From contig NZ_CP026003.1 in NCBI RefSeq assembly GCF_003086795.1, positions 3,150,579 through 3,214,578 on the forward strand: DNA of 64,000 nucleotides. Reading direction: 5' to 3'. Each line of letters starts with the position of its first letter. Position 1 is the stretch's first letter. A model generated the notes under the pieces. It did no database searches. It was not told where the DNA came from and saw nothing but the letters and a program-made list of their open reading frames with translations. Both the position numbers and the translations under genes were made by a program. Source of the stretch: Stenotrophomonas sp. SAU14A_NAIMI4_5 (lineage in GTDB: Bacteria > Pseudomonadota > Gammaproteobacteria > Xanthomonadales > Xanthomonadaceae). Of this stretch, positions 26,720 to 57,398 are shown piece by piece.

Positions 26720-26823
26720 GGTGGGGCGGTGTGGGCTTGCAGGACCGCAGGCGCCATGGATGGCGCCTACGAGCCCCCATGGATGGGTTTACGGCGTGTC
26801 CTGCAAGCCCACACCGCCCCGCC
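26720..26823 (+). repeat. Core-conserved palindromic element, copy 1 (104 bp)
   Basis: Outer arms 26720-26745 and 26798-26823 are 26 bp long with one mismatch (inner ends GCAGGAC / GTCCTGC). The core between them holds hairpin 1 (AGGCGCCAT-gg-ATGGCGCCT) and hairpin 2 (CCCAT-gg-ATGGG), then TTTACGGCGT. An associated tail continues to about 26895: CATCCCACGGAATGCCGCTC, a TGCAGGGC/GCCCTGCA hairpin at 26863-26883 and a run of nine C at 26887-26895. With 26645-26667 it occupies most of the 336-base gap between the VOC and DUF2147 genes. See the findings for the comparison of copies. Confidence 0.85.
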
Positions 26824-26971
26824 ATCCCACGGAATGCCGCTCTTGCCGTTGCATCCAGCAGGTGCAGGGCTGCAAGCCCTGCAAAGCCCCCCCCCTTCCC
26901 CATACCCCGCCGAATGGGTATACAGTCGCCCTGTACCGGCAACGTGCCGGAATGAACCCTGGGAGGGGACC

Positions 26972-27421
26972 ATGCGCAAGACCTTCAAGACCCTGTTGCT
27001 GGCACTGCCGCTGTGCCTGGCCGCCCTGTCGGCCCAGGCCGCCGACAGCGCCGCCGGCCGCTGGAAGACCATCGACGACAAGACCGGCAAGGTGAAGTCG
27101 ATCGTCGAGATCAGCCAGACCGCCAACGGCGCGCTGACCGGCAAGGTGGTCGAGATCCTGCAGTCGGACAAGGGTCCCAACCCGGTCTGCGACGGCTGCG
27201 AAGGCGCCAACAAGAACAAGCCGGTGAAGGGCATGACCATCCTCTGGAACCTGTCGCAGGACAAGGGCAGCCACAGCAAGTGGTCCGGCGGCACCATCCT
27301 CGACCCGGCCAACGGCAAGACCTACAAGTCCAAGCTGGAACTGCAGCCGGGCGGCGGCAAGCTGGACGTATCCGGCTGCATCGCCTTCATCTGCCGCACC
27401 CAGACCTGGGTCCGCGAGTAA
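26972..27421 (+). CDS. Exported DUF2147 protein
   Basis: A 149-residue protein with a Sec signal peptide (about 1-23; LLLALPLCLAALSAQA-AD) and a DUF2147 domain: AAGRWKTIDDKTGKVKSIVEI, GMTILWNLSQDKGSHSKWSGGTILDPANGKTYKSKLEL and GCIAFICRTQTW. The cysteine pair CDGC lies in the middle and further cysteines near the end. DUF2147 proteins are lipocalin-like beta barrels of unknown ligand. The ATG at 26972 has GGGAGGGG 6 bases upstream. Confidence 0.9.
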   Translation: MRKTFKTLLLALPLCLAALSAQAADSAAGRWKTIDDKTGKVKSIVEISQTANGALTGKVVEILQSDKGPNPVCDGCEGANKNKPVKGMTILWNLSQDKGSHSKWSGGTILDPANGKTYKSKLELQPGGGKLDVSGCIAFICRTQTWVRE

Positions 27422-27446
27422 GGCCTCCGGCCCGCGCAGCACCCCC

Positions 27447-27470
27447 GTGACCCGGCCCCGGCCGGGTCAC
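27447..27470. terminator. Possible terminator hairpin between the DUF2147 gene and metG
   Basis: Stem GTGACCCGGC, CCCG loop, complementary arm, ending 54 bases before the metG start. No T run follows. Confidence 0.4.
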
Positions 27471-27523
27471 CTCGTTGCAGGCATGCGATAATCTGCGGTT
27501 CCCCTCGGCTGCACCCCGCGACC

Positions 27524-29605
27524 ATGACCCGTACCGCGCTCGTCACCACCGCCCTGCCCTACGCCAACGGCCCCCTGCACCTGGGCCATCTGGTCGGCTA
27601 CATCCAGGCTGACATCTGGGTGCGCGCGCGGCGAATGAGCGGCGGCAAGGCCTGGTTCGTCTGCGCCGACGACACCCACGGCACGCCGATCATGCTGGCC
27701 GCGGAAAAGGCCGGGGTCACCCCGGAAGCCTTCATCGCCAACATCCAGGCCGGCCATGAGCGCGATTTCGCCGCCTTCGGCGTGGCCTTCGACCACTACG
27801 ACTCGACCAACTCGGCGGCCAACAAGGCGCTGACCGAGCAGTTCTACCTGAAGCTGGAAGCGGCCGGCCACATCAGCCGTCGCTCGGTGGCGCAGTTCTA
27901 CGACCCGGCCAAGGGCATGTTCCTGCCCGACCGCTACATCAAGGGCATCTGCCCGAACTGCGGCAGCGCCGACCAGTACGGCGACAACTGCGAAGTCTGC
28001 GGCGCCACCTACAACCCGACCGACCTGAAGGATCCGAAGTCGGTGATCTCCGGCGCCACGCCGGAAATCCGTGATTCGGAACACTTCTTCTTCGAGGTCG
28101 GCCGTTTCGAAGGCTTCCTGCGCACCTGGCTGGCCGGCGACGTCGCCCTGCCCGGGGTGAAGGCCAAGCTGATGGAATGGCTGGACGCTGAAGGCGGCCT
28201 GCGCGCGTGGGACATCTCGCGCGATGCGCCGTACTTCGGTTTCGAGATCCCCGGCCAGCCGGGCAAGTACTTCTACGTCTGGCTGGACGCGCCGATCGGC
28301 TACCTGTCGAGCTTCCAGACCCTGTGCGGCAAGCTCGGCGAAGACTTCGAATCGCACCTGCGCGAAGGCACCAGCACCGAACTGCACCACTTCATCGGCA
28401 AGGACATCGTCAACTTCCACGGCCTGTTCTGGCCGGCGGTGCTGAACGGTACCGGCCACCGCGCGCCGACCCGCCTGCACGTCAACGGCTACCTGATGGT
28501 CGACGGCGCGAAGATGAGCAAGTCGCGCGGCACCTTCGTGATGGCGCGCACCTTCCTCGACGCCGGCCTGGAACCGGAAGCCCTGCGTTACTACTACGCG
28601 GCCAAGACCAGCGGCGGCGTCGACGACCTCGACCTGAACCTGGGCGATTTCGTGGCGCGCGTGAACGCCGATCTGGTCGGCAAGTTCGTCAACCTGGCCA
28701 GCCGCTGCGCCGGCTTCATCAGCAAGCGCTTCGACGGCCTGCTGGCCGCGCAGCTGCCCGATGCGGCGCAGTACCAGCGCTTCGTCGATGGCCTGGCGCC
28801 GATCCGTGAAGCGTACGAGCGCAACGACCCGGCCGCCGCCATCCGCCTGACCATGACCCTGGCCGACGAAGCCAACCGCTACATCGACGAGGTCAAGCCG
28901 TGGGTCATCGCCAAGCAGGAAGGCGCCGACGCGCAGCTGCAGGCGGTGTGCAGCCAGGGCCTGAACCTGTTCCGCGTGCTGGTCACCGCCCTGAAGCCGG
29001 TGCTGCCGGCCACCGCTGCGCAGGCCGAGGCCTTCCTGGCCGCGCCGGTGAACGACTGGACCGCACTGGCACAGCCGCTGCTGGGCCACCGCATTGCTGA
29101 GTACACCCCGCTGTTCACCCGTATCGACCCGAAGAAGATTGACGCCATGATCGACGCCTCCAAGGACACCCTGCAGCCGGCCGCCGCTGCCGCCCCCGCC
29201 GCCAAGACCGAAGCCGTGAAGCCGGCTGCCCCGGCCCCGGCCAAGGACGAAGCGAAGAGCGCCGACGCACCGGCCTACATCGGCATCGATGATTTCGCCA
29301 AGCTCGACCTGCGCATCGGCAAGGTGCTGGTGTGCGAATTCGTGGAAGGCTCGGACAAGCTGCTGCGCTTCGAACTGGATGCGGGCGACCTGGGCAAGCG
29401 CCAGATCTTCTCCGGCATCCGCGCCAGCTACGGCGAGCCGGAAGCGCTGGTCGGCCGCAACGTGGTGTTCATCGCCAACCTGGCCCCGCGCAAGATGCGC
29501 TTCGGCCTGAGCGAAGGCATGATCCTGTCGGCCGGTTTCGACGGTGGCGCGCTGGCCCTGCTGGATGCCGACAGCGGCGCGCAGCCGGGCATGCCGGTCC
29601 GCTGA
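27524..29605 (+). CDS. metG: Methionyl-tRNA synthetase
   Basis: A 693-residue class I synthetase of the long, dimeric type. The HIGH motif is in PYANGPLHLGHLVGY, the zinc knuckle is CPNCGSADQYGDNCEVCG, and the KMSKS motif is GAKMSKSRGT. A Pro/Ala/Lys linker (about residues 548-580) leads to a C-terminal tRNA-binding domain (KLDLRIGKVLVCEFVEGSDK, RNVVFIANLAPRKMRFG). It charges initiator and elongator tRNA-Met. The HAD phosphatase gene follows after 55 bases. Confidence 0.97.
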   Translation: MTRTALVTTALPYANGPLHLGHLVGYIQADIWVRARRMSGGKAWFVCADDTHGTPIMLAAEKAGVTPEAFIANIQAGHERDFAAFGVAFDHYDSTNSAANKALTEQFYLKLEAAGHISRRSVAQFYDPAKGMFLPDRYIKGICPNCGSADQYGDNCEVCGATYNPTDLKDPKSVISGATPEIRDSEHFFFEVGRFEGFLRTWLAGDVALPGVKAKLMEWLDAEGGLRAWDISRDAPYFGFEIPGQPGKYFYVWLDAPIGYLSSFQTLCGKLGEDFESHLREGTSTELHHFIGKDIVNFHGLFWPAVLNGTGHRAPTRLHVNGYLMVDGAKMSKSRGTFVMARTFLDAGLEPEALRYYYAAKTSGGVDDLDLNLGDFVARVNADLVGKFVNLASRCAGFISKRFDGLLAAQLPDAAQYQRFVDGLAPIREAYERNDPAAAIRLTMTLADEANRYIDEVKPWVIAKQEGADAQLQAVCSQGLNLFRVLVTALKPVLPATAAQAEAFLAAPVNDWTALAQPLLGHRIAEYTPLFTRIDPKKIDAMIDASKDTLQPAAAAAPAAKTEAVKPAAPAPAKDEAKSADAPAYIGIDDFAKLDLRIGKVLVCEFVEGSDKLLRFELDAGDLGKRQIFSGIRASYGEPEALVGRNVVFIANLAPRKMRFGLSEGMILSAGFDGGALALLDADSGAQPGMPVR

Positions 29606-29660
29606 TGCCCTGTGGGCGCGGCCCTCGCCGCGCCCCTCCACGCAGACCGCCACGGAAGGC

Positions 29661-30272
29661 ATGGCCATGGGAGAGAGCAGGATGGAGCTGGCGCTGTTCG
29701 ATTTCGACCACACCGTCACCACCTGCGATACCTATGGCCGCTTCCTGCGCCGCGTGGCCACGCCCGAGCAGCTGGCGCGCGCATGGTGGAAGGTCGGCCC
29801 CTGGCTGCTGGCCTACCGCCTGCGCATCATTTCCGCCGCGCGCATCCGCGCCCGCGTCACCCGCCTCACCTTCAGCGAACGCCACGCCGATGACATCGCC
29901 ACGCTGGCGGCCGGTTTCGCCCGCGAGGTGCTGCCCGAGGTGATGCGTCCGGAAATGCTGGAGCAGATCCGCTGGCACAAGGAACAGCAGCACACCGTGG
30001 TGATCGTGTCCGGTTCGCTGGACCTGTACCTGCGGCCGTGGTGCGAACAGCTGGGCCTGCAGCTGATCTGCAACCGGCTGGAAAGCCAGGATGGACGCCT
30101 GACCGGGCGTTACGCGGGCGGTGACTGTGGCCCGCGCAAGGTCGAGCACATCCGTCGCCAGTTCGATCTGTCGCGCTACCTGCGCATCCACGCCTATGGC
30201 GACAGCTACGAAGACCGCCCGATGCTGGCCCTCGCCCACGAGCGCTGGTACCGCGGCAGACCCCTGAAGTGA
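29661..30272 (+). CDS. HAD-IB family phosphatase
   Basis: A cytoplasmic HAD hydrolase of about 203 residues. Motif [12 protein letters not shown] gives the nucleophile Asp and the acid/base Asp position as His-Thr (DxDxT form: D-F-D-H-T). Motif II is [11 protein letters not shown], and motif III/IV is [10 protein letters not shown] with the lysine in GPRKVEHI. SerB-like and CDP-glycerol-phosphatase-like members share this form. The substrate is unknown. Starts at 29661, 29667 and 29682 are all possible; 29661 has GGAAGG upstream. It lies between metG and an RnfB-like gene. Confidence 0.85.
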
Positions 30273-30297
30273 TTTTGACGCGCAGCCTTCGCCACGC

Positions 30298-30711
30298 ATG
30301 AGCCTGATCCCGCCCCTGACCGAACGCCTCGACCGCTTGCTGCCGCAGACCCAATGCGGGCAGTGCGGCTACGACGGCTGCCGCCCGTATGCACAGGCGA
30401 TGGCACGCGGCGAAGCGGGCGTGGACCGCTGCCCGCCCGGTGGCGATGCCGGTGCACGCGCACTGGCACAGGTATTGGATGTGCCCGCCGTGCCCTTCGA
30501 CCGCACGCGCGGCGAGCACAAGGCGCCGCAGGTCGCCCTGATCGTCGAAGCCGACTGCATCGGCTGCACCAAGTGCATCCAGGCCTGCCCGGTGGACGCC
30601 ATCGTCGGCGGCGCCAAGTACATGCACACGGTGATTGCCGACCTCTGCACCGGCTGCGAGCTGTGCATCCCGCCGTGCCCGGTGGACTGCATCGACCTGG
30701 TGCAACTGTAG
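30298..30711 (+). CDS. RnfB/RsxB-like iron-sulfur protein, short form
   Basis: A 137-residue ferredoxin-like protein. The N-terminal part is the RnfB-type four-Cys domain ([17 protein letters not shown] ... RCPPGG), followed by two 4Fe-4S ferredoxin motifs ([16 protein letters not shown] and [16 protein letters not shown]). True RnfB has an N-terminal membrane helix, which is missing here, and no rnfACDGE genes are nearby. It is therefore probably a soluble electron carrier; the partners are unknown. It begins 25 bases after the HAD gene and probably shares its transcript. Confidence 0.88.
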
Positions 30712-30722
30712 CGGCCGCCGCC

Positions 30723-30761
30723 GGGGTCGGATCCCTTTCCAGCGGAAAGGGCTCTGACCCC
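30723..30761. repeat. GGGGTC-ended hairpin element, copy 1
   Basis: GGGGTCGGATCCCTTTCC, loop AGCG, then GAAAGGGCTCTGACCCC. It lies 11 bases after the rnfB-like stop and could act as a hairpin at the transcript end. The rest of the 301-base gap 30712-31012 shows only a CCGCCAC/GTGGCGG hairpin near 30965-30985 and the ribosome site CGGAG of the next gene. Confidence 0.8.
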
Positions 30762-31012
30762 ACTTCACCAGACATTCGTCGCAATCACCGCGTCCTGCAC
30801 GCCGCGCGCCCACACGGAACAGGACGCACATCGCAGATTGCCCCACTGCTCGCGGCACATGCGCCAGCCCACTGCGGCCTCTTTCAACCGCATGCCAGAC
30901 TTCCGCAAACGTCCTGTGACGGGCCACCCCAAGCGGCTGGCCGGTTTTCAAGCCACGTTCCGCCCGCCACCGTGCCGTGGCGGCTACCGATTGACCTGAA
31001 CGGAGCTGTGCC

Positions 31013-31369
31013 ATGACCCCTTCGGACCTTACCGACGACTGCACCTGCGACATCACCGATGCAGCGGACGAGATCGAGCGCCATCCCGACAGGATGATGG
31101 CCCTGCTGCGGAAGATCAGCGCGGCTGCCGCCGTCGATGGATTCCCGTGGCCGGAAGGCTACCTGCTGCCCGGCGGCCATCTCGGCCTGACCGACGCAGA
31201 CCGCACCCTGGTCGGCCTGCGCGTGGTGCAGGAAATCATGCTGGCCGCCGAACGCAGCCGGCATCATGACGACGCCGCCGAATACGTCGGCGACCACGTC
31301 ATGGATGGCCTGATGCAGGCCTGCATCGCGCTGTCGGAACACGCCGCCAGCAGGATCGGCCTGCAGTAA
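31013..31369 (+). CDS. Hypothetical protein
   Basis: A 118-residue acidic, soluble protein with no signal peptide or membrane segment. It has several short helical stretches (DAADEIERHPDRMMALLRKIS, VQEIMLAAERSRHHDDAAEYVGDHVMDGLMQAC) and a histidine-rich middle. The N-terminus carries CTCDIT. I do not recognise the family; proteins of this size and look occur as lineage-specific genes in Stenotrophomonas. GGAGCTG precedes the ATG. It is flanked on both sides by GGGGTC-ended hairpins. Confidence 0.65.
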   Translation: MTPSDLTDDCTCDITDAADEIERHPDRMMALLRKISAAAAVDGFPWPEGYLLPGGHLGLTDADRTLVGLRVVQEIMLAAERSRHHDDAAEYVGDHVMDGLMQACIALSEHAASRIGLQ

Positions 31370-31376
31370 CGACAAC

Positions 31377-31415
31377 GGGGTCAGAGCCCTCTCCTTCGGA
31401 GAGGGATCCGACCCC
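31377..31415. repeat. GGGGTC-ended hairpin element, copy 2
   Basis: GGGGTCAGAGCCCTCTCC, loop TTCG, then GAGAGGGATCCGACCCC. It lies 8 bases after the stop of the preceding gene, between converging genes. Confidence 0.8.
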
Positions 31416-31433
31416 GCTTCACGCAATCCCGGA

Positions 31434-31781
31434 TTACGGCACGGCCGCCGTGATCACGATCTCGACCTTCCACTCGGCATGCGCCAGCTTCGCTTCGAAC
31501 GTTGCACGCGCCGGGGTCGCACCTTCGACCACCCACTCATCCCACGCCTTGTTCATGCCGTCGAAATCGGCGATGTCGGCCAGGAACACTTCCGCGCGCA
31601 GCACGTGCTGGCGATCACTGGCGACCAGCGCCAGCAGCTTGTCGATCTCCGCCAGCACCTGCCGGGTCTGCCCGGTGATGTCCTGGCTGGTGTCTTCCGG
31701 AATCTGGCCGGAAAGGTAGGCGACCTTGTTGTGCACGGTCATCTCGGACATGCGCGGTCCGACGTCGTAACGCTCCATCAT
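31434..31781 (-). CDS. RidA (YjgF/YER057c) family protein
   Basis: A 115-residue protein of the RidA superfamily, whose archetype hydrolyses reactive enamines and imines from amino-acid catabolism. The core VHNKVAYLSGQIPEDTSQDITGQTRQVLAEIDKLL and the C-terminal VEGATPARATFEAKLAHAEWKVEIVITA match. The Arg in TPARATFEA, needed for imine hydrolysis in RidA proper, is present. There are two in-frame ATG codons in tandem at the start (31781 and 31778). It diverges from mprF. Confidence 0.9.
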   Translation of the reverse strand: MMERYDVGPRMSEMTVHNKVAYLSGQIPEDTSQDITGQTRQVLAEIDKLLALVASDRQHVLRAEVFLADIADFDGMNKAWDEWVVEGATPARATFEAKLAHAEWKVEIVITAAVP

Positions 31782-31975
31782 GGGCGTGGCTCCTGCGGGG
31801 TGGACTGAACCCCATTCTCACCCAGCCGGGCGGTGAAATGTGGCCTCCCGCACGCACATTCGTTGCCGCCAATCGCCGCACAGTGCCGGTGCTGGTCAAA
31901 CGCCACCGACAGGCGCACGATGCGCCACGTTCACGTTGACACCCCTCTTCCCCCTGCTGTCGCATTCTTGCGCCG

Positions 31976-34540
31976 ATGACCCCAGCCAACGACCCCACCA
32001 CCGCTTCGCACACCCCGGCATGGAAGCGGGTCCTGACCATCGTCGTCCCGCTGCTGATCCTGTCGCTGGCCCTGCACGGGCTGGCCAACGAGTTCGACGA
32101 GCACGGCTACCGTGCCATCCGCGAGGCCTTCCACAAGCTGACCGGCACGCAGATCGCGCTGACCGTGCTGCTGGGCCTGGCCAGCTACGCCTGCCTGATC
32201 GGCTTCGATGCCATCGGTCTGCGCCGCAGCGGTATCCGCGTGCATCCGGCGCGCGTGGGCATCACCGCCTTCCTCGCCCACACCCTGGGGCAGACGGTGG
32301 GCTTTGCGGCACTGACCGGCGGCGCGGTGCGTCTGCGCGGCTACCGCAGCGCCGGACTCGACCTGGCGCAGATCGGCCAGGTGGTGCTGATGAGCACGCT
32401 GGGCTTCGTCTTCGGTGCCTGGCTGCTGATCGGTGTGGCGCTGTGCATGGAACCGGCCGCCGCCGCGCTGGCCCTGCCGCTGGACCCGGCCGCAGTGCGC
32501 GTGGTCGGCATCCTCGCCCTGCTCGCCTACGCCACCACCGTGCTGCTGGTCGGCCGCAACGGGCGCCAGTTCCGCATCTTCGGCCATGGCCTGTGGCTGC
32601 CGGATCGCCGCACCATGCTCGGCGTCACCGTGCTCAGCGTGATCGAGCTGGTGCTGGCCAGCGCCGCGTTCTACGTGCTGCTGCCCGACTCGACGCCCAC
32701 CGGCCTGCCCGGCTTCGTCGGCCTGTACCTGGTGGCTGTGCTGGCCGGCCTGGTGTCCACGGTCCCGGCCGGCCTGGGCGTGTTCGAGTGGAGCCTGCTG
32801 AAACTGCTGCCGCAGGTCGCCCCGGCCGCGGTGCTGGCGGCCGCGCTGATCTATCGCGTCACCTACTACGTGCTGCCGCTGCTGCTGGCCACCCTGCTCG
32901 CCTTCGCCCCGGCGCTGCGCCAGCCGCTGCAGGCCAGCGCCGGGGCCACCCGCGCCGGCTGGCATGCGCTGCGCCCGTGGCTGCCGCAGATCATCGCGCT
33001 GGCTGCCTTCAGCATCGGCGCCGCGCTGGTCATCGATGGCACGCTGCCGACGCCACGCCGCCATCTGCTCAACGCCTCGCTGCCGATCCTGGAAACCTCG
33101 CACCTGATCGGCAGCCTCGGCGGCGTCGCGCTGCTGCTGATCGGCCAGGGCCTGGCCCGGCGCAGCCATGCGGCGTGGATGCTGGCGATGGCGGTGTGCG
33201 TGATCACGCCGCTGCCGCTGTGGCTGCGCGGCGGCCAGCCGCTCATCGCCGTGTCCGCGCTGCTGGTGGCGATGGCGCTGTGGGCCGCGCGCCGCGAGTT
33301 CTACCGCCAGGGCGCGCTGCTGGATGAAGCGTGGTCGTGGCCGTGGCTGCGCAACCTGGGCCTGGTGCTGGTCGCGGTCACCTGGCTGCTGTTCTTCACC
33401 TACAGCCATGTCGAATACCAGAACGAGCTGTGGTGGCAGTTCGCGGTGTCGGGCAATGCGCCGCGTGCGCTGCGCGCGCTGCTGGTGGTGGCCATCGCGC
33501 TGGTGATGTTCGGCCTGGCGCGCCTGCTGCACAGCACGCGCACGCCGCTGCCGGCCGCCGACGATGCCACCCTGCAGGCGCTGGCGCCGGTACTGGCCAA
33601 CGCCACCGATACCCAGGCCTGCCTGGTGCTGACCGCCGACAAGGCGGTACTGCGCGACGAGGCGAAACAGGGCTTCGTGATGATGCAGCGCTATGGCGGC
33701 TCGCTGATCGCGATGGGCGATCCGGTCGGCCCGCCCGAGGTCGCCCGTGCGCTGATCTGGCGCTTCCGCGAGGAGGCCGACCGACTCGGCCTGCGCCCGG
33801 TGTTCTACCAGGTGGGCGAGGCCTACTGGCAGACCTATCTGGATCTCGGCCTGGGCCTGGTCAAGCTGGGCGAGGAAGCCATCGTGCCGCTGCACGATTT
33901 CGGCCTGGAAGGCCGCGAGCGCGCCGACCTGCGCCAGGCCTGGAACCGCGGCAAGCGCGGCGGCCTGTCGTTCCGCGTGGCGCCGGTGGAAGAACTTCCC
34001 GAGCTGCTGCCGCGCCTGCACGCCATTTCCAACGCCTGGCTGGACGACAAGGCCGGTGACGAAAAGGGCTTTTCGCTGGGCAGCTTCGATCCGCAGTACC
34101 TGGTGCGTTTCCCGGTGGCGCTGGTCGAGGCCGAGGGCGAGATCGTGGCCTTCGCCAACCTCTGGCAGGCACCGGCCGGTGCCGAGTTGTCGGTGGACCT
34201 GATGCGCCACGTCAACGAGGCACCGAAGGGCACGATGGATTTCCTGTTCATCGAGCTGTTCCTGTGGGGCCGCGCGCAGGGCTATGCGCGTTTCTCGCTG
34301 GGCATGGCGCCGCTGTCCGGATTGGCCCAGCACCGCCTGGCGGGCCGCTGGAACCGCTTGGCCGGCCTGCTGGCGCGGCATGGCGAACGCTTCTACGGCT
34401 TCAGCGGCCTGCGCCGGTTCAAGTCGAAGTTCGCCCCGCAGTGGCGCCCGCGCTACCTCGCCGCACCCGGCGGCATGCACCTGCCGGCGGCGCTGCTGGA
34501 TGCCACGCGGTTGATTTCGCTGGACCCGCGCCGCGGGTGA
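31976..34540 (+). CDS. mprF: Bifunctional lysylphosphatidylglycerol synthetase/flippase
   Basis: An 854-residue inner-membrane protein. The N-terminal part (about 1-530) holds some 14 hydrophobic segments in the flippase and junction regions, including TAFLAHTLGQTVGFAALTGGAVRLRGY and GFVGLYLVAVLAGLVSTVPAGLGVFEWS. The C-terminal cytosolic domain (about 540-850, DUF2156; FVMMQRYGGSLIAMGDPVGP, FRAVPVEEL-like, RFSLGMAPLSGLA) transfers lysine or alanine from charged tRNA to phosphatidylglycerol. The lipid lowers net membrane charge and reduces sensitivity to cationic peptides. The stop is followed by tandem 20-base repeats. It faces virJ, which encodes a probable hydrolase of the same lipid. Confidence 0.94.
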   Translation: MTPANDPTTASHTPAWKRVLTIVVPLLILSLALHGLANEFDEHGYRAIREAFHKLTGTQIALTVLLGLASYACLIGFDAIGLRRSGIRVHPARVGITAFLAHTLGQTVGFAALTGGAVRLRGYRSAGLDLAQIGQVVLMSTLGFVFGAWLLIGVALCMEPAAAALALPLDPAAVRVVGILALLAYATTVLLVGRNGRQFRIFGHGLWLPDRRTMLGVTVLSVIELVLASAAFYVLLPDSTPTGLPGFVGLYLVAVLAGLVSTVPAGLGVFEWSLLKLLPQVAPAAVLAAALIYRVTYYVLPLLLATLLAFAPALRQPLQASAGATRAGWHALRPWLPQIIALAAFSIGAALVIDGTLPTPRRHLLNASLPILETSHLIGSLGGVALLLIGQGLARRSHAAWMLAMAVCVITPLPLWLRGGQPLIAVSALLVAMALWAARREFYRQGALLDEAWSWPWLRNLGLVLVAVTWLLFFTYSHVEYQNELWWQFAVSGNAPRALRALLVVAIALVMFGLARLLHSTRTPLPAADDATLQALAPVLANATDTQACLVLTADKAVLRDEAKQGFVMMQRYGGSLIAMGDPVGPPEVARALIWRFREEADRLGLRPVFYQVGEAYWQTYLDLGLGLVKLGEEAIVPLHDFGLEGRERADLRQAWNRGKRGGLSFRVAPVEELPELLPRLHAISNAWLDDKAGDEKGFSLGSFDPQYLVRFPVALVEAEGEIVAFANLWQAPAGAELSVDLMRHVNEAPKGTMDFLFIELFLWGRAQGYARFSLGMAPLSGLAQHRLAGRWNRLAGLLARHGERFYGFSGLRRFKSKFAPQWRPRYLAAPGGMHLPAALLDATRLISLDPRRG

Positions 34541-34546
34541 TCCGGG

Positions 34547-34607
34547 GTGCGAACTCCCCCCGGTGGGTGCGAACTCCCCCCGGTGGGTGCGAACCGTTGG
34601 TTCGCAC
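34547..34607. repeat. Tandem 20-bp repeat ending in a hairpin
   Basis: Two perfect copies of GTGCGAACTCCCCCCGGTGG (34547-34566 and 34567-34586) are followed by a partial third that forms the hairpin GTGCGAACC-gtt-GGTTCGCAC (34587-34607). It lies just after the mprF stop. Confidence 0.85.
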
Positions 34608-34612
34608 GCTTT

Positions 34613-34637: not shown

Positions 34638-34649
34638 GGTGGGGGCGGC

Positions 34650-39347: not shown

Positions 39348-39452
39348 GGCGGGACGGAGAGGGGCCGCCGGGACACGCGGTAAATACGTCCATGTAGCTC
39401 GTAGGCGCCATCCGTGGCGCCTACGGTCCCGACGGCCCCTCTCCGTCCCGCC
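39348..39452 (-). repeat. Core-conserved palindromic element, copy 6 (105 bp)
   Basis: Outer arms 39348-39374 and 39426-39452 are 27 bp with one mismatch and have a sequence unlike the other copies (GGCGGGACGGAGAGGGGCCG). The core, on the minus strand, has hairpin 1 (TAGGCGCCA-cgg-ATGGCGCCTA) and a variant hairpin 2 (CTACATGGACGTA) followed by TTTACCGCGT. It lies in the yjdM-Hsp70 gap (39250-39754), which also holds 39455-39540 and 39543-39646. Confidence 0.8.
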
Positions 39453-39454
39453 TT

Positions 39455-39540
39455 GGACAGTTTCCCGCGCCGGCGGCCGGGACAATCAAAAGCGTGGGTT
39501 GCTGCTTTGCCGTTTGTTGCCGCGCTCCGGGAAACTGTCC
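39455..39540. repeat. Inverted repeat spacer between two palindromic elements
   Basis: GGACAGTTTCCCG (39455-39467) and its perfect complement CGGGAAACTGTCC (39528-39540) enclose 60 bases without an evident gene. The unit fills the space between element copies 6 and 2 exactly. Confidence 0.7.
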
Positions 39541-39542
39541 AG

Positions 39543-39646
39543 AGCCGAGGGGGCGGCCGGAGCAGGACCGCAGGCGCCATGGACGGCGCCTACGAGCCCC
39601 CATGGATGGGTTTACGGCGTGTCCTGCTCCGGCCGCCCCCTCGGCT
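39543..39646 (+). repeat. Core-conserved palindromic element, copy 2 (104 bp)
   Basis: Perfect 26-bp arms at 39543-39568 and 39621-39646 (inner end GCAGGAC / GTCCTGC; outer part AGCCGAGGGGGCGGCCGG). The core is nearly identical to copy 1, with hairpin 1 GGCGCC-atggac-GGCGCC and hairpin 2 CCCAT-gg-ATGGG. No tail follows. Confidence 0.85.
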
Positions 39647-44834: not shown

Positions 44835-45012
44835 TGCAGGGCTGCGCCCTGCACCTGCCGAAGCCGAAGCCGAAGCCGAAGCAACAGCAACAGCGGGCTA
44901 TCCGTGGGTTGGCGGGGTGGGGCCGGTTGAGGGGGACGCCGTGAACCCATCCATGGGGGCTTGGTCGCGGCATCCATGCCGCTCACACCCCCTCAACCGG
45001 ACCCACCCCGCC
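44835..45012 (-). repeat. Core-conserved palindromic element, copy 3 (inverted, with tail)
   Basis: Main element 44911-45012 on the minus strand. Arms GGCGGGGTGGGKCCGGTTGA (left, 44911-44934) and the complementary right end at 45012 differ from those of other copies. Hairpin 1 has GCGGCAT-gg-ATGCCGC instead of GCGCCAT-gg-ATGGCGC, a paired change; hairpin 2 is CCCCCATGGATGGG. The tail runs toward 44835, with a TGCAGGGC/GCCCTGCA hairpin (44835-44853) and four GCCGAA units (44857-44880), close behind the MscS-gene stop. Confidence 0.8.
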
Positions 45013-45087: not shown

Positions 45088-45228
45088 TCGATATGTGACA
45101 GATGTGCCGACCAACGGTCGGCACCTACCAACAGCCGCCCGTCCCAGTAGATCCACGCCATGCGTGGATGAATTCATTCGATATCTGACAATTGTGCCGA
45201 CCAACGGTCGGCACCCACCAACAGCTGC
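45088..45228. repeat. Direct repeat of two GTGCCGACC palindromes with a GTAG REP between
   Basis: Two near-identical stretches of about 51 bases (45088-45138 and 45178-45228; TTCGATAT.TGACA...GTGCCGACC-aac-GGTCGGCAC...ACCAACAGC) lie 90 bases apart. Between them is a GTAGATCCACGC/GCGTGGAT REP at 45147-45170. Confidence 0.75.
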
Positions 45229-45258
45229 ATTTGCCAGCAGCGCACGGAATCTGTCAGA

Positions 45259-45438
45259 GGCGGGGCGGTGTGGGTGGGCAGGACCGCAGGCGCCATGGAT
45301 GGCGCCTACGAGCCCCCAGGGATGGGTTTACGGCGTGTCCTGACCACCCACACCGCCCCGCCATCCCACGGAATGCCGCTCTTGATCTTGCTTCGGCTTC
45401 GGCAGGTGCAGGGCGCAGCCCTGCAATACCCCCCCCCT
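45259..45438 (+). repeat. Core-conserved palindromic element, copy 4 (with tail)
   Basis: Arms 45259-45284 and 45337-45362 are 26 bp with one mismatch (GGCGGGGCGGTGTGGGTGG.CAGGAC). The core carries hairpin 1 GGCGCCAT-gg-ATGGCGCC and hairpin 2 CCCCCAGGGATGGG. The tail (to 45438) has CATCCCACGGAATGCCGCTC, two TTCGGC units, the TGCAGGGC/GCCCTGCA hairpin (45407-45425) and nine C (45429-45437), ending 1 base before the TraR/DksA stop codon. Copies 3 and 4, with 45041-45228, fill the 619-base gap 44820-45438. Confidence 0.85.
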
Positions 45439-49384: not shown

Positions 49385-49387
49385 CGC

Positions 49388-50467: not shown

Positions 50468-50741
50468 CCGGATCGGCCCTGTCGTTGCACTGCTGCTGCC
50501 ACTGACTGCCCCTGCGCGTTCTTCACATCGGCCACCTGCCGTCGACGCTGCATCGGCCGCACTTTCATCTTCTTTAACCCGGACCGCTCGGATCTGCACG
50601 GCAGATGCCGGGGGAATGGACTAGAATGGCGCCGCGCGACCCGTCCCCCAGCCATGACGACGTCGCTTTTTTTGTTTTGGGACCCTACCGTTCACTGGCA
50701 GTTCGCTGCAGTTCGCCGCTGATCGCGCCATCGGAGACGCC

Positions 50742-51839: not shown

Positions 51840-51865
51840 TCCGCCCCACCGCGGGACACGGGGAA

Positions 51866-51889
51866 TGCCGGCCAGCGGCCGGCACTACC
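51866..51889. repeat. GTAG REP (SMAG-type), after leucine dehydrogenase
   Basis: TGCCGGCC-ag-CGGCCGGCACTACC, with the CTAC end, between two converging genes. Confidence 0.85.
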
Positions 51890-51901
51890 GGGTAACCCCG
51901 A

Positions 51902-54748
51902 TCAGAAAGCGGCGCTGTAACGCAGCGCCACCTGGCGCAGATCCCCACGCGGACCGAAGCGCTGGTCGTAGCCGAAGCCCAGCCGCGTGTTGCGGCTCAA
52001 CCACGATTCCACCGATACGCCGAACAGGCCGCCGGAACGCGTCGGCTGCAGGCCGGCCATCGGTGCCCATGCGTCGACGCCGACGAAGCTCGCATCCGCA
52101 TCCAGGCCCTGGCTGGACAGCAGCTGCTGCCACTCGGCATAACCGCGCAGCGACCAGCCGCGCCACTCGCGCTCGGCGCGCACACCGGCCAAGGCCTGGC
52201 TGCGGCTGCTGATCCCGCCCTGCGTGCGCAGGCCGAAGCCCAGCCCGCCCTGTTCGCTGAAGCGATCGTTGTCGACCCGCGCGTAGTCGGCGCCCACGTA
52301 GGGGGTCAGCGCTGCATGCGCCGACCCGAAGCGGTAGCCGGTCTCCACGCTGGCCATGCTGAAGCTGCCGCCGTAGCGCGCATTGACGCCGTACTGGCCG
52401 GCTCCCAGCAGCAGCTGGCGATCGATCTGGCGGGTGAACTGGCCGGCGCCCACCTGGCCCAGCGCGTAGGCACCACCACTGCTCCAGCCCGCATACAGCT
52501 GCGCCTGCGACTGCCGGTCACGCCCGCGGTCGCCGCCCCAGCTGCTGTTGCTGTAGCTGCGCAGTTCGCCGAAGGCGAAGCCGAGCACGCCGTTGCCGCC
52601 CATCGCCACGTCCTGGCCCATCATCCAGCCGCGGGTGTCGGTGCCGCTGGCCGAGAAGCTGCCCTGGCCGGCATCGCCCAGCGCGTTCTGCCAGGTGCCG
52701 CCCAGCCGCGGAGCGGCCTGGACCTGGCCGAAGCGGGCCGACAATGCACGGCGGCCCAGGTCGATGCTGTCGAACGTGGCCGCCGCGGCCAGCGCATGCG
52801 CCTTGCCGGACAGGCTGTCGAGGCTGGCCTGCAGGGCCTGGTTGCCTTCCACCCGCTGCAGCGCGGCCGCGCCATCGGCGAAGGAGGCCGAGCCGGCGCC
52901 GAGATCGAGGCGCTCGAACGCTGATTCCACCCGCAGCGCCGAGGCCAGCGCGGCGTTGGAGGCGCGCGCCACGCTGGCGGCCTGGGTGACGTTGATGCGG
53001 TCGGTGACCAGCACCACGTTGTCGCTGCCGTAGGTCAACGAACTCTGCAGCAGGGTGCCCTGCGGCAGGCTGTTGCTGACCGCGTCGAAGCGGCCGGTGA
53101 CGCCCTGGCCGGCATGCAGCACGGTCTGGGTGCGGCCATCGGCGGCCACGTAGCCGCTGACGATGCTGGCCACGTGCACGTCGCCGCCCTGCAGGGTGGC
53201 CGTGCCGGTGATCTCCAGCGGGTTGGAACCCAGCGAAATGCTCAGCCGTGCACCGGCACGATGCAGGTAGTTGCCCTCGATGGTGGCGCTGGTATTGGCA
53301 TTGCGCAGGATGACGGTGGCGCCGTTGTCGACGTTGCCGCGGATCCGGCTGGTGCCGGTCATGAACTGCAGCGCGGCGCCCTCGGGCACGCCGGCCTGCG
53401 GCACCACGACCACGTTGGAGGTGATCGACCCGCCATCGCGCAGCGCCAGCGTGCCCTGCTCGATGCGGGTTTCGCCGGTGTAGGTGTTGGTGCCCGACAG
53501 CCCCAGCGCGCCGACGCCCTGCTTGACCAGGCCACCGCTGCCGCTGATGTCGTTGCTCCAGACCGAATCCAGGCCGGTCTGCGAGACGTTGACCACGGCA
53601 TTGCCCCAGTCGAACTTCGCCGGCCCGTTGATGGCCTTGGCGATGTTCAGCAGGCCATAGCCGAAGGTGCTGTCCACGCCGGGCGCACCCAGGTCGGTGG
53701 CGGTGCCGAGCAGGGTCTGCCGTACCAGGTCGTTGCTGAAGTACGGGTATTTCTGCCAGACCACGGCCGCCGCACCGGACACCAGCGGCGCGGCGAACGA
53801 GGTGCCGTAGTTCCACAGCAGGGTGGAGCCGGTCGGGTAATTCGGATTGACGAAGATCGCCGCACCGGGTGCCGCCAGGCAGTAGCTGGCCGCCACGCCG
53901 CAGGCGTTGGCATAGCCGGCCAGCTTGCTGGGGTCGGTGGAATCGACCGCGGTCACCGCCAGCCAGCCACGCTCCAGGTCGGCGGCCGGGCGCGAATTGT
54001 TCGGGCCGGCCTGGCTGGGCAGAGCCGCCATGTCCGACGGGTTGGCCTTGGATTCATTGCCGGTGGCGAACACCACCAGGCCGTTGTTGCCGATGATGAA
54101 GGGACGGTACTCGGCCGCGATCGGGGCGGTGGCCGCGGCATTGGTCCAGTACAGCCCGCCCCATGAGTTGTTCATGATCTTCACGCCCTGGTTGATCAGG
54201 TCCTGGTGGACCCCCGCCAGGCCAAGCGCGCCATCGACCTCGTTGCCGTTGCCCGACCCATCGTCGGTCGGCCGCGTGTCGGAAATGATCCGCGCCGAGA
54301 CGATCTGCGCGTTCGGCGCGATGCCTCCCGGCCACGACCCGAAGGCCTTGCCCGCCGCCAGTTCAGCCACCGCCGTACCGTGGCCGACCACGTCATCGTT
54401 GTTGAGGTTGTTGCTGCGCGGATCCACGTAGCTGTAGTTGGCCAGCACCCGCCCGCTCAGGGTGGGATGGTTGCGCTGCACGCCCGAATCGACGATGCCG
54501 ATGCGCACGCCGCTGCCATCCAGCCCCGCGCTGCGCGCTGCGTCGGCCTTGGTGATGGACAGGTGCGCGTTGATCGCCGGTTCGGCCGGCTGGGTGGGCG
54601 TGGTCGGCGGAGGCGTGGTGGGCGGCGGCGGGGTGGTCGGTGGGGGATCGACGCGCACGTTGCTGCCGCCGCCTCCGCCGCCACATGCCGTCAATGCAAC
54701 CACCAATGCCGATCCCAGGACCGACCGTGCCATCGTCTTGCGTTCCAT
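51902..54748 (-). CDS. Subtilisin-like serine protease autotransporter
   Basis: A 948-residue type V secreted protein. The signal peptide ends in a lipobox-like LTAC (Cys22) followed by six glycines. A Pro/Thr linker (about 35-55) leads to an S8 subtilase domain (about 60-385) with the triad Asp87 (IVDSG), His123 (GHGTAV) and Ser317 (GTSFAAP). A PATR-type beta repeat (SGTNTYTGETRIEQGTLAL), a passenger stalk and a C-terminal autotransporter barrel (about 690-948) ending in RYSAAF follow. Such proteases degrade extracellular or host proteins. The gene is monocistronic and faces leucine dehydrogenase. Confidence 0.93.
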   Translation of the reverse strand: MERKTMARSVLGSALVVALTACGGGGGGSNVRVDPPPTTPPPPTTPPPTTPTQPAEPAINAHLSITKADAARSAGLDGSGVRIGIVDSGVQRNHPTLSGRVLANYSYVDPRSNNLNNDDVVGHGTAVAELAAGKAFGSWPGGIAPNAQIVSARIISDTRPTDDGSGNGNEVDGALGLAGVHQDLINQGVKIMNNSWGGLYWTNAAATAPIAAEYRPFIIGNNGLVVFATGNESKANPSDMAALPSQAGPNNSRPAADLERGWLAVTAVDSTDPSKLAGYANACGVAASYCLAAPGAAIFVNPNYPTGSTLLWNYGTSFAAPLVSGAAAVVWQKYPYFSNDLVRQTLLGTATDLGAPGVDSTFGYGLLNIAKAINGPAKFDWGNAVVNVSQTGLDSVWSNDISGSGGLVKQGVGALGLSGTNTYTGETRIEQGTLALRDGGSITSNVVVVPQAGVPEGAALQFMTGTSRIRGNVDNGATVILRNANTSATIEGNYLHRAGARLSISLGSNPLEITGTATLQGGDVHVASIVSGYVAADGRTQTVLHAGQGVTGRFDAVSNSLPQGTLLQSSLTYGSDNVVLVTDRINVTQAASVARASNAALASALRVESAFERLDLGAGSASFADGAAALQRVEGNQALQASLDSLSGKAHALAAAATFDSIDLGRRALSARFGQVQAAPRLGGTWQNALGDAGQGSFSASGTDTRGWMMGQDVAMGGNGVLGFAFGELRSYSNSSWGGDRGRDRQSQAQLYAGWSSGGAYALGQVGAGQFTRQIDRQLLLGAGQYGVNARYGGSFSMASVETGYRFGSAHAALTPYVGADYARVDNDRFSEQGGLGFGLRTQGGISSRSQALAGVRAEREWRGWSLRGYAEWQQLLSSQGLDADASFVGVDAWAPMAGLQPTRSGGLFGVSVESWLSRNTRLGFGYDQRFGPRGDLRQVALRYSAAF

Positions 54749-54930
54749 CGATTCCTTCCCATGAACGTTGGCCTGCCAAGCTCCCTGCAGGCATCAAGGG
54801 CTGCCCGGCGGCAGCCATCCCCGACCCTCTATACTTGGGCCGACCCCCACGCAGTCTGCCGGGAAACAGCGCTGCATCCAACAGCCGCCGTCTCCTTTCC
54901 GAACATTGCTTACGCATCAACGAGATTGCC

Positions 54931-56106
54931 ATGTCCAACATCGTCATCGCCGCCGCCAAGCGCACCGCCATCGGCTCCTTCCTCGGCCAGTTCAACGGCG
55001 TGCCCACCCCGACCCTCGGCGCGGCCGCCATCGCCGCTGCCCTTGAACAGTCCGGGGTTCCGGCCAGCGACGTCTCCGAGGTCCTGATGGGCTGCGTGCT
55101 GCCGGCCAACCTCGGCCAGGCGCCGGCCCGCCAGGCCGCCATCGCCGCGGGCATCCCGCTGTCGGCCGGTGCCACCACGCTGAACAAGGTGTGCGGCTCG
55201 GGCATGAAGACCATCATGCTCGGCCATGACCTGATCAAGGCCGGTTCGGCCACGGTCGTGGTCGCCGGCGGCATGGAATCGATGTCCAACGCCCCGCACA
55301 TGCTGCCCAATTCGCGCACCGGCAACCGCTTCGGCAACTTCCAGGCGGTGGACCACATGGCCCACGACGGCCTGGTCAACGCCTACGACGGCAAGGCCAT
55401 GGGCGAGTTCGCCGAATGCGCGGTGGACAAGTACCAGTTCACCCGCGAGGAGCAGGACGCCTACGCCATCGAATCGGTGCGCCGTGCCCAGGCCGCGCAG
55501 GCCAATGGCGCATTCGCCGACGAGATCGTCGCGGTGAAGGTCGCCACCCGCAAGGGTGAGGTCGAGTTCGCCACCGACGAGCAGCCGGGCCGTTCGGACA
55601 TCGCCAAGATCCCGACCCTGCGCCCCGCATTCAAGAAGGACGGCAGCGTCACCGCCGCCAGCTCGTCCAGCATTTCCGACGGCGCCGCTGCCGTGGTCCT
55701 GCTGACCGAGGATGACGCCACCGCGCGCGGCATCACCCCGCTGGCGCGCATCGTCGGCCATGCCACCCATTCGCAGGAACCGGAGTGGTTCACCACCGCC
55801 CCGATCGGCGCGATCCACAGCCTGCTGCAGAAGACCGGCTGGACGCTGGACCAGGTGGACCTGTTCGAGATCAACGAAGCCTTCGCCGTCGTCGCCATGG
55901 CGCCGATGCGTGAACTGGGCATCCCGCATGCGAAGATCAACGTGAATGGCGGTGCCTGCGCGCTGGGCCATCCGATCGGTGCGTCCGGTGCGCGTCTGGT
56001 GGTAACCCTGGTCAACGCCTTGCGCACGCACGGCGGCAAGCGCGGCATTGCCACGCTGTGCATCGGTGGTGGCGAAGCAACGGCCATCGCCATCGAATTG
56101 ATCTAA
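54931..56106 (+). CDS. Acetyl-CoA C-acetyltransferase (thiolase)
   Basis: A 391-residue thiolase that condenses two acetyl-CoA to acetoacetyl-CoA or cleaves it. Catalytic residues are Cys88 (NKVCGSGMK), His in NGGACALGHPIGASGAR and the final Cys in ATLCIGGGEATAIAIE; EINEAFAVV is also characteristic. It stands alone, with no adjacent CoA-transferase or PHA genes, so whether it serves degradation or synthesis is open. The start at 54931 is the normal thiolase N-terminus (MSNIVIAAAKRT). Confidence 0.94.
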   Translation: MSNIVIAAAKRTAIGSFLGQFNGVPTPTLGAAAIAAALEQSGVPASDVSEVLMGCVLPANLGQAPARQAAIAAGIPLSAGATTLNKVCGSGMKTIMLGHDLIKAGSATVVVAGGMESMSNAPHMLPNSRTGNRFGNFQAVDHMAHDGLVNAYDGKAMGEFAECAVDKYQFTREEQDAYAIESVRRAQAAQANGAFADEIVAVKVATRKGEVEFATDEQPGRSDIAKIPTLRPAFKKDGSVTAASSSSISDGAAAVVLLTEDDATARGITPLARIVGHATHSQEPEWFTTAPIGAIHSLLQKTGWTLDQVDLFEINEAFAVVAMAPMRELGIPHAKINVNGGACALGHPIGASGARLVVTLVNALRTHGGKRGIATLCIGGGEATAIAIELI

Positions 56107-56148
56107 AAGGGATTAACGCTGATTTCGCAAAAATGAATGCGGGATCGC

Positions 56149-56176
56149 TTGACAGCCAAACGTGGCTTGTCATCAT
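56149..56176 (+). promoter_or_regulatory. Probable sigma-70 promoter of the first Ala-rich lipoprotein gene
   Basis: TTGACA (56149-56154) is a perfect -35, followed after 16 bases by CATCAT (56171-56176) as a 4/6 -10. The start codon lies 53 bases after the -10. Confidence 0.6.
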
Positions 56177-56228
56177 GTTGTCGGCGCGCAGTTGCGCGTT
56201 GCCTAATTCAACGACGAGGATTCACACA

Positions 56229-56570
56229 ATGAGCATCAACAAGCTGCTGGTCGCTATGTCCCTGGCCCTGGCCCTGGCCGCCTGCTCGAAGCAGGAAGCT
56301 GCCCAGGACGCCGCTGCTTCGGCCAACGAAGCCGCCACCGAAGCCCAGGCTGCTGCCGACCAGGCCGCCGCTGCTGGCGCCCAGACCGCCGACGCTGCCC
56401 AGCAGGCTGCTGACACCGCCGCCACCGCTGCCGACGCTGCGACCGACGCTGCTGCCCAGACCGGCGCTGCTGCTACCGACGCTGCTGCTGAACAGGCCAA
56501 GGACGCTGCCAAGGCTGCCGAAGGCACCGCCGAGCAGGCCAAGGACGCCGCTGAAGAAGCCAAGAAGTAA
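56229..56570 (+). CDS. Alanine-rich lipoprotein 1
   Basis: A 113-residue lipoprotein. The signal peptide ends with the lipobox LAAC (Cys19, in LALALAACSKQEA). The mature part is almost wholly Ala, Asp, Gln, Thr and Glu in heptad-like order (AADQAAAAGAQTADAAQQAADTA) and should form a long amphipathic helix or coiled coil, similar in style to Lpp or to helical envelope spacers. It has its own promoter and a strong terminator. A paralogue follows. Confidence 0.88.
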   Translation: MSINKLLVAMSLALALAACSKQEAAQDAAASANEAATEAQAAADQAAAAGAQTADAAQQAADTAATAADAATDAAAQTGAAATDAAAEQAKDAAKAAEGTAEQAKDAAEEAKK

Positions 56571-56596
56571 TAACTTCTTTCTTCACGCTGTTCTGG

Positions 56597-56629
56597 AAAA
56601 GCCGCTGGTTCGCCAGCGGCTTTTTCTTT
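56597..56629 (+). terminator. Rho-independent terminator between the two lipoprotein genes
   Basis: AAAAGCCGCTGG-ttcg-CCAGCGGCTTTTTCTTT. Confidence 0.92.
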
Positions 56630-56718
56630 GCCTGAAGGGCGCCGCCGCACCACCACCGGGCCTTCACGACGGCATGAATAGGCTGGCGTCCCCATCCATT
56701 GCAGCACTGGAGACCGCC

Positions 56719-57129
56719 ATGAAGATCCGTCCGCTGACCACCCCCCTGCTGGCCGCCTCCCTGCTGCTGGCCCTGGCCGCCTGCAAGGGCCCGGAGGCCG
56801 AACAGGCCAGGCAGGACGCTGCACAGGCCGCCGACAGCGCTGGCGCCGCCGCCCGCGAAGCCGTGGACAAGGCCGCCGCCGCCACCCGCGAAGCCGCCGA
56901 CAAGACTGCCGAAGCGTCCGAGCACGCCGCCGCCGACACCCAGCAGGCGCTGGACAATGCCGCCGACGCGACCGCCAACGCCGCCGACCAGGCCAAGGCC
57001 GCCGCCACCGATGCCGCCGCCCACGCCAGCGACGCCACCGCGACCGCCGCGCAGAAGGTCGCCGACAAGGCCCGCGACGTCGCCGCCGACGCCAAGGCCA
57101 ACGCCGCCAAGGAAGAAGCCAAGCACTGA
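56719..57129 (+). CDS. Alanine-rich lipoprotein 2
   Basis: A 136-residue paralogue of the preceding lipoprotein. The signal peptide ends with LAAC (Cys22, LLALAACKGPEA). The helix-forming mature part (AADSAGAAAREAVDKAAAATREAADKTAE ... KVADKARDVAADAKANAAKEEAK) has more Lys and Arg than its neighbour. GGAGACC is a plausible ribosome site. It probably arose by duplication and divergence from lipoprotein 1, and ends in a basic Lys-rich tail. Confidence 0.88.
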   Translation: MKIRPLTTPLLAASLLLALAACKGPEAEQARQDAAQAADSAGAAAREAVDKAAAATREAADKTAEASEHAAADTQQALDNAADATANAADQAKAAATDAAAHASDATATAAQKVADKARDVAADAKANAAKEEAKH

Positions 57130-57134
57130 CCCAC

Positions 57135-57203
57135 CGCTGCGCTCGCCGGCATGGCCCGGCGCTACCGGGCATTAACGCTCGCCGGGCATGGCCCGGCGCT
57201 ACC
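57135..57203. repeat. Two direct GTAG REPs (SMAG-type)
   Basis: Two direct units, each with GCCGGGCATGGCCCGGCGCTACC or a near match, end at 57165 and 57203. They follow the lipoprotein 2 stop. Confidence 0.85.
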
Positions 57204-57211
57204 GCATACAG

Positions 57212-57245
57212 GAAAAGCCGCGGCATTGCCGCGGCTTTTCTGCTT
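57212..57245 (+). terminator. Rho-independent terminator after lipoprotein 2
   Basis: AAAAGCCGCGGCA-t-TGCCGCGGCTTTTC, then TGCTTCTG. Confidence 0.85.
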
Positions 57246-57290
57246 CTGCTCTTCCGTTGATTCCGTGGTGGACGCGCCCGGAAACCGTCC

Positions 57291-57398
57291 GGGGCCGCGC
57301 GGGTGGGTTGCGCAGGGGCGTAAGCGCCATGGATGGCGCGCTCGAGCCTACAAGGACGTATTCACGGCGTCCCCTGCGCACCCCACCCGCGCGGCCCC
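57291..57398 (+). repeat. Core-conserved palindromic element, copy 5 (108 bp)
   Basis: Arms 57291-57318 and 57371-57398 are 28 bp with one mismatch (GGGGCCGCGCGGGTGGG.TGCGCAGGGG), again unlike those of other copies. The core has hairpin 1 GCGCCAT-gg-ATGGCGC and the variant hairpin 2 CCTACAAGGACGTA, like copy 6. With 57135-57245 it fills the 320-base gap between lipoprotein 2 and the acyl-CoA dehydrogenase gene; 57246-57290 shows nothing else. Confidence 0.82.

Follow-up and report, generated by a model that had tools for sequence, protein, structure and literature searches.

What maintains a palindrome whose two arms stay complementary while their sequence varies strongly between copies? The question was raised by a window of DNA (the whole stretch analysed, 64,000 nucleotides) from Stenotrophomonas sp. 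SAU14A_NAIMI4_5, contig NZ_CP026003.1, positions 3,150,579 to 3,214,578. This had been predicted to hold six dispersed elements, each with a conserved core of two hairpins enclosed by copy-specific, self-complementary outer arms. By sequence comparison the window copies, the Yersinia repeat YPAL/RU-2 and the RNA family TwoAYGGAY were shown to be one dispersed gammaproteobacterial family. The reading favoured for the whole, at slightly better than an even chance, was that of a dispersed candidate CsrA/RsmA-binding RNA element with a paired stem of free sequence, the arms of which change jointly.

Pairing of the arms and the six window copies

Copies were selected by a pattern that covered hairpin 2 with the 3' junction and left the arms unconstrained; it gave 116 usable places. 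The best of several registers was counted, for copies and controls alike. Arms with at least 17 of 22 Watson-Crick pairs were present at 84 of the 116 core-selected places, compared with 8 of 2298 arm-swapped controls, and the 84 paired copies carried 83 distinct arms; the claim that the arms vary freely yet stay paired was upheld. Covariation was measured in the 64 core-selected copies that had the commonest spacing; these were picked by their core words only, whatever their arms. Standard pairs were formed by 90.8% of arm cells against 46.7% (standard deviation 1.1) in shuffles, and by 38-49% when the partners were slid 1-2 columns, which confirmed the expected covariation. The arm columns had an entropy of 1.3-2.0 bits. 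The hairpin 1 stem of the same copies also varied yet paired (91.1% vs 63.2% in shuffles). Cores were 83-91% identical within each of four genomes (G347, G278, G225 and G217), with arms at 56-58% and shuffled arms at 44-49%; arm likeness within a genome was 71% in G123 and 85-91% in G191, G075 and G141. The pairing rate is no evidence in sets that were found by arm pairing, namely this within-genome comparison and the 187-copy and 52-copy sets below.

A DNA hairpin is expected to carry G.T and A.C mismatches equally often, and an RNA made from one strand to tolerate only G.U. Both were counted on the strand with GGA in its loops (the GGA strand). In 96 core-selected copies, taken from a survey by exact core half and having at least 15 of 22 arm pairs, 95 G.U and 29 A.C contexts were found (p=2e-9), or 64 and 18 where both neighbours were paired. 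The 187 copies found by arm pairing gave 56 G.U against 22 A.C (p=1.5e-4) and a narrower pattern, with 52 copies, gave 15 and 7. The excess favours selection on the pairing of this strand as RNA, and RNA-level selection on the GGA strand is well supported.

Every predicted coordinate and orientation in the window was verified (Table 1). The elements measured 102-108 base pairs (bp) between arm ends and had 24-26 Watson-Crick pairs among the outer 26 positions, as expected of complementary arms, with one extra G.U arm pair in each of copies 1 and 2. Folding energies were -74.3 to -90.9 kcal/mol, 6.2-11.5 standard deviations below dinucleotide shuffles, and no shuffle out of 200 folded as well. 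When as many as 3 mismatches were allowed, the core word GGCGCCATGGATGGCGCC matched the window 10 times (0.77 expected; shuffle maximum 5, n=100). Nine matches were accounted for by both strands of five copies; the match at 63545 was not a copy, and copy 4 was unmatched in the window at this threshold. Chance or artefact as the source of the copies was ruled out by the core-word counts, the folding energies and the arm pairing against shuffles. A covariance model, R1, was built from an alignment (alignment A1) of 43 copies of the own genome (G000). Scanned along both strands of the window, it returned exactly the six copies and nothing elsewhere.

The predicted core boundary GCAGGAC/GTCCTGC was not universal, being AGGGGG/CCCCCT in copy 4 and GCAGGGG/CCCCTGC in copy 6. 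The core word TTTACGGCGT also varied, to TTTACCGCGT in copy 2 and TTCACGGCGT in copies 4 and 6. Both hairpins of the predicted three-way junction were present in the minimum-energy folds of copies 1, 3 and 5, while the hairpin 2 portion paired otherwise in copies 2, 4 and 6. By a crude gene call all six window copies were intergenic, as had been stated for all copies; across the family, 14 of 139 classified copies lay inside called open reading frames (ORFs). An ORF at 26729-27421 overlaps copy 1; its DUF2147 domain begins only at residue 110 of 230, and its start is likely to lie downstream of the copy.

Table 1. Positions, arm pairing, loops and surroundings of the six copies in the window
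Feature	Position	Strand	Watson-Crick pairs, outer 26	Arms and loops	Setting
Copy 1	26720..26823	+	25	5' arm 26720-26745, 3' arm 26798-26823; loops ATGGA 26756-26760 and 26779-26783	Between a glyoxalase-family gene and a DUF2147 gene, same strand
Copy 2	39348..39452	-	25	Minus-strand loops ACGGA 39415-39411, ATGGA 39393-39389	Left half of head-to-head doublet
Copy 3	39543..39646	+	26	Arms perfect, 26 bp; loops ATGGA 39579-39583 and 39602-39606	Right half of doublet with copy 2
Doublet of copies 2 and 3					Between divergent genes: yjdM-type (minus), Hsp70-like (plus)
Copy 4	44911..45012	-	24	Hairpin 1 stem GCGGC/GCCGC; minus-strand loops ATGGA 44977-44973 and 44954-44950	Left half of second head-to-head doublet
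Copy 5	45259..45362	+	25	Loops ATGGA 45295-45299, AGGGA 45318-45322	Right half of doublet with copy 4
Doublet of copies 4 and 5					Between convergent genes: mechanosensitive-channel-like (plus), DUF2058 (minus)
Copy 6	57291..57398	+	25	Loops ATGGA 57329-57333, AAGGA 57352-57356	Between convergent genes: one without Pfam match, one AidB-like acyl-CoA dehydrogenase

In most of the Stenotrophomonas copies read, GGAAACTGTC or a variant adjoins the 5' arm (for example at window positions 39530-39542), and it stands inverted between many doublet partners. The window also holds a tRNA-Asn gene (8336-8412, minus strand).

Loops, named relatives and spread

CsrA binds the sequence CANGGANG, and A-N-GGA is the CsrA/RsmA motif. 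In alignment A1, for which hairpin 1 was part of the selection and hairpin 2 was not, the A, G, G and A columns were invariant in both loops and the base between A and GGA varied. Where the pattern left the hairpin 1 region free, A.GGA was present in 74 of 84 core-selected copies compared with 54 of 675 control stretches, and 8 of the 10 core-selected regions without A.GGA contained GGA. Fixed A.GGA in both loops together with a covarying hairpin 1 stem is the appearance expected of paired CsrA/RsmA sites. The copies have GGA in hairpin loops, in pairs, as in CsrA/RsmA-binding RNA, and an outer stem that bears a pair of hairpins with A-N-GGA loops, as in TwoAYGGAY. A single CsrA match, the RsmA gene, was found in the own genome. 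Among good-quality genomes, 54 of the 55 that carry the element encode CsrA, as do 226 of the 259 that lack it (two-sided p=0.015; absence in G235 was taken from a missing row). Binding of RsmA by the element RNA is plausible as a prediction from sequence. The GGA-in-loop rule for CsrA sites is given in the accessible part of PMC4333381, in which Gardner and Eldai propose CsrA binding for TwoAYGGAY and describe its external stem as poorly conserved. The sponge RNAs CsrB and RsmX/Y/Z likewise have paired GGA hairpin loops but are dedicated single genes, whereas here one two-loop unit is repeated at dispersed places (general background and the same part of PMC4333381).

The original prediction knew of no named family of this description, and this did not hold. 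A new unnamed family was ruled out by alignment of the core with YPAL and by a TwoAYGGAY match over the cut-off. The core of copy 6 was 48/55 identical to the YPAL/RU-2 sequence printed in the accessible part of Delihas 2007 (PMC2759123), with a score of 40 where 500 shuffles reached no more than 15. Both A.GGA loops, the hairpin order, the junction words, flanking paired arms and dispersed intergenic copies are held in common. YPAL differs in being ∼168 bp long with less perfect arms; the shorter window copies differ from it in arms and flanks and come from another bacterial order. YPAL shares the family of the window copies and not their subfamily.

TwoAYGGAY (Rfam RF01731) matched one relative, L108, end to end at 44.0 bits (cut-off 43). 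Over the 67 genomes with the element it matched 8 at E≤0.001 and 4 over the cut-off, under stricter filters that missed the genome of L108. Of 13 fetched TwoAYGGAY hits, 11 were also R1 hits on the same strand (exceptions L366 and L368). Copy 3 was matched partially, at 20.4 bits (E=1.2 in a 401-base search) and below the cut-off, and the own genome gave no TwoAYGGAY match at E≤0.001. The two families agree in strand and in architecture, a pair of hairpins with AYGGAY-type loops borne by an outer stem poorly conserved in sequence (accessible parts of PMC2864571 and PMC4333381); they differ in that many copies here carry A.GGA with non-Y bases. The consensus of Ysr224 (Rfam RF02770) reads by eye as the reverse complement of YPAL. 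At E≤0.001 it was found in 36 of the 67 element genomes and at 29 places in the own genome, but none of the 67 passed its cut-off of 70 bits (own-genome best 39.0), and the window copies passed neither Rfam cut-off. On the window stretch its E-value was 1.8e-5, and plant and animal microRNA models scored equally there. Since long stems alone give such values, the YPAL alignment carries the weight. The papers listed for YPAL and those listed for TwoAYGGAY had none in common, and no literature uniting the two was recognised among the titles and abstracts judged.

REP/BIME repeats, with SMAG of S. maltophilia, likewise have many intergenic palindromic copies and occur in pairs, but SMAG is a short, GTAG-tagged single hairpin as opposed to the Y structure with GGA loops seen here (accessible parts of PMC3733652 and PMC2613905). 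No REP-type terminal GTAG or CGTC tag was seen by eye at the ends of the copies read. Short SMAG-like palindromes adjoin the elements at window positions 26660-26680, 45100-45230 and 57180-57235 and in the flanks of many copies.

The core word occurred exactly 38 times in the own genome, and at least 49 copies were counted when near variants and copy 4 were included; 33 of the 49 lay on the minus strand of the contig. R1 matched 23 of 41 genomes searched together with the own genome, with at least 90 matches per genome, both strands possibly being counted. The element was widespread in Gammaproteobacteria, with R1 matches in 67 of 369 sampled genomes and 59 of 271 genera. A sample of the phylum gave matches in 19 of 299 genomes, all 19 from the same class (the share of the 299 outside the class was not stated). 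The exact core half was found in at least 120 stretches, of which 80 were listed; genera among the matches listed were Marinobacter, Halopseudomonas, Rheinheimera, Microbulbifer, Sedimenticola, Aquisalimonas, Zobellella and Stenotrophomonas. Copy 6 had no match in plasmids or E. coli genomes at blastn sensitivity. Four of the exact-core-half loci (L267, L268, L269 and L308) were in records titled as Klebsiella pneumoniae metagenome bins, titles which may be wrong.

Long forms were found in six own-genome copies (L010, L035, L037, L038, L042 and L044), with ∼80 extra bases in place of hairpin 2 and, in all but L038, a 10-base arm match after the insert. Another insert of ∼80 bases was present within hairpin 1 in copies of G420, G009 and G011, and modules of this length were also present in hairpin 2 or hairpin 1 of L170, L171, L193 and L202. 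Insert modules enter either hairpin of the element. The hairpin 1 module itself contains hairpins, which have AGGAC or AGGACA in the loop.

Comparison of single sites among relatives

Two sites were compared across 30 genomes: site A, that of copies 2 and 3, and site B, that of copy 6. The length of site A between anchors was 570 bp in G000, 646 bp in G420, 725 bp in G009 and 506 bp in G011, and 188-263 bp in the other 26 genomes; 12 of the 30 sequences were read. Being long in 4 of 30 genomes, it gives filled and empty sites as in the recently mobile YPAL. Its arms were common to G000 and G420. In G009 the flanks were 94-96% identical to those of G000 and each of the two places held a copy, and the arms agreed at 18/33 and 19/28 aligned letters, no likeness beyond shuffles (average 59%). 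The second G009 copy had arms common to the more distant G011. At site B an intact copy was counted in 18 genomes, a decayed copy in 5 and none in 7. Recognisably the same arms, with differing hairpin cassettes, were present in 17 of the 18 intact copies; G437 had its own arms (18/26 and 19/27 letters). Counts at site B, of replaced loops and of doublet orientation in one table (15/16) were made by eye.

Thirteen sites were compared between G000 and G420. Copy 1, L030 and L039 differed at 7 or more of 26-27 positions of the 5' arm and nearly as many of the 3' arm, and these heavily changed arms still paired at 24-25 of 25-27 positions. In a gapped comparison the arms of copy 1 had 19 and 20 of 26 letters in common. 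L029 differed by a block of three, and the remaining nine sites agreed apart from single changes. Flanks were 92-97% identical at most sites and 86-90% on one side of L029, L039, L040 and L044. L028 was without a counterpart, L032 was excluded because it was uncertain which flanks corresponded, and for G009 several flanks were absent. The tail of one query (query positions 735-770) matched many places in the genus. The syntenic comparison called for by the original prediction thus yielded filled and empty sites, and arm pairs at one site proved able to differ yet pair. Both arms change together, in blocks, faster than the flanks; gene conversion from another copy would be the simplest cause. 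That the arms are always taken from the insertion site was unsupported, many own-genome copies sharing arms and 17/18 intact site B copies keeping theirs recognisable; in genomes such as G347 the insertion site may be their source.

The original prediction had offered either selection on folding or a process that writes one arm from the other, and each was supported in part, the first by the 95 G.U against 29 A.C contexts and the second by the joint arm change at one site. Template switching in replication, in which one arm is copied from the other by quasi-palindrome correction with no selection on pairing, would produce near-perfect arms and, in both arms of a single site, changes at several neighbouring positions, as at the sites L030, L039, 26720, A1 and A2; two G009 copies had been lost by imprecise deletions starting inside an arm, which points to instability. 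Such correction would, however, remove G.U and A.C alike, yet G.U was favoured, and neither the covarying hairpin 1 stem nor the two fixed loops fits it. This explanation was considered improbable.

Mobility may instead explain the pairing. A mobile single-stranded-DNA element of the REP or IS200/IS605 sort would have its hairpins and loops recognised by a transposase, with pairing serving mobility and the doublet as the mobile unit. YPAL is described as recently mobile, as making target duplications of 3-26 bp and as lying at or beside dyad symmetry (accessible part of PMC2229807). Near-identical copies with common flanks were present in G288 and G191, and the filled and empty sites agree with movement. 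So does the order of neighbours: those within 500 bp stood head to head in 12/12 pairs from 400 kb of G420 and G009 and in 13/16 class-wide, as did 15/16 neighbour pairs in a further set of loci (L287 is probably the doublet already counted as L087). The window holds two such doublets, and no tail-to-tail pair was present in any neighbour-pair set counted. L369 (G617:C1:94413-95646), unlike these doublets, had six R1 matches on one strand at ∼228 bp spacing, a tandem array. DNA pairing does not predict a one-strand excess of G.U over A.C, and the mobile single-stranded-DNA element was rated unlikely. The original prediction did not mention the GGA in the loops, the head-to-head order of doublets or the insert modules.

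Gene context and meaning of the family

Genes were called with a simple script, and 125 copies had two called neighbours; 14 copies that fell within a called ORF (L001-L168) and 30 that lacked a neighbour (all loci) were left out. Neighbouring genes were convergent at 43 copies, co-directional with the copy antisense at 42, co-directional with the copy sense at 25 and divergent at 15. The 3'-side gene opposed the copy in 85/125, at a median distance of 93 bp. This context, with convergent pairs outnumbering divergent ones, would suit a terminator, 3'-end stabiliser or insulator at gene ends, acting mainly in the transcript of the 3'-side gene and so on the strand without GGA. Co-transcription of YPAL with the genes upstream of it, and a possible effect on the stability of their RNA, are described in the accessible part of PMC2229807. 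No T run followed the arms in the copies read, and the conserved loops and the toleration of G.U by the GGA strand would be left unexplained; such a role was given only a slim chance.

Several observations weigh against an RsmA-binding RNA made from the GGA strand. The opposing 3'-side gene (p=7e-5) means that read-through from the nearest gene would carry the strand without GGA, and the sense strand was not preferentially downstream of a same-strand gene (68/125, p=0.37). Ysr224, the Yersinia transcript, is also the strand without GGA. Context and head-to-head order speak against a simple sense element in the 3' untranslated region of the nearest gene and are the main unexplained feature; no promoter common to doublet partners was apparent by eye in 20 gaps. 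Long-form copies are without the A.GGA of hairpin 2. The association with CsrA was weak over all 369 genomes (62/67 element genomes, one-sided p=0.03) and may reflect genome size. C-to-T damage acting on one strand could give the appearance of an excess of G.U.

In the favoured reading, that of a candidate CsrA/RsmA-binding element, the strand with GGA in both loops would act as RNA. Its stem, ∼20-50 bp long (23-35 in most cases) and free in sequence, would carry a three-way junction from which two hairpins each expose A-N-GGA, and the two loops would hold one RsmA/CsrA dimer. Through transcripts at the ends of genes, copies would bind RsmA or titrate it. The sequence of the arms would matter only for pairing. 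Besides single changes they change jointly at many positions, which was seen directly and would come about most simply through recombination or gene conversion with another copy.

A wider proposal was held tentatively, at somewhat less than an even chance. It is that one class-wide mobile RNA family, split under the names YPAL and TwoAYGGAY, supplies genomes with dozens of ready-made Y structures that bind CsrA/RsmA and stand at the ends of genes, often head to head, forming a distributed and fast-changing sink for a global regulator in which the stem strands change together and the loops stay fixed.

Two separately named families are joined here, with strong covariation in an almost sequence-free stem, and the idea that TwoAYGGAY binds CsrA becomes testable in many genera. 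The joint arm change at one site lends itself to the study of how palindromes evolve in concert. Should the copies bind RsmA, a global regulator would be tuned by repeat content itself, and that content would differ between strains.

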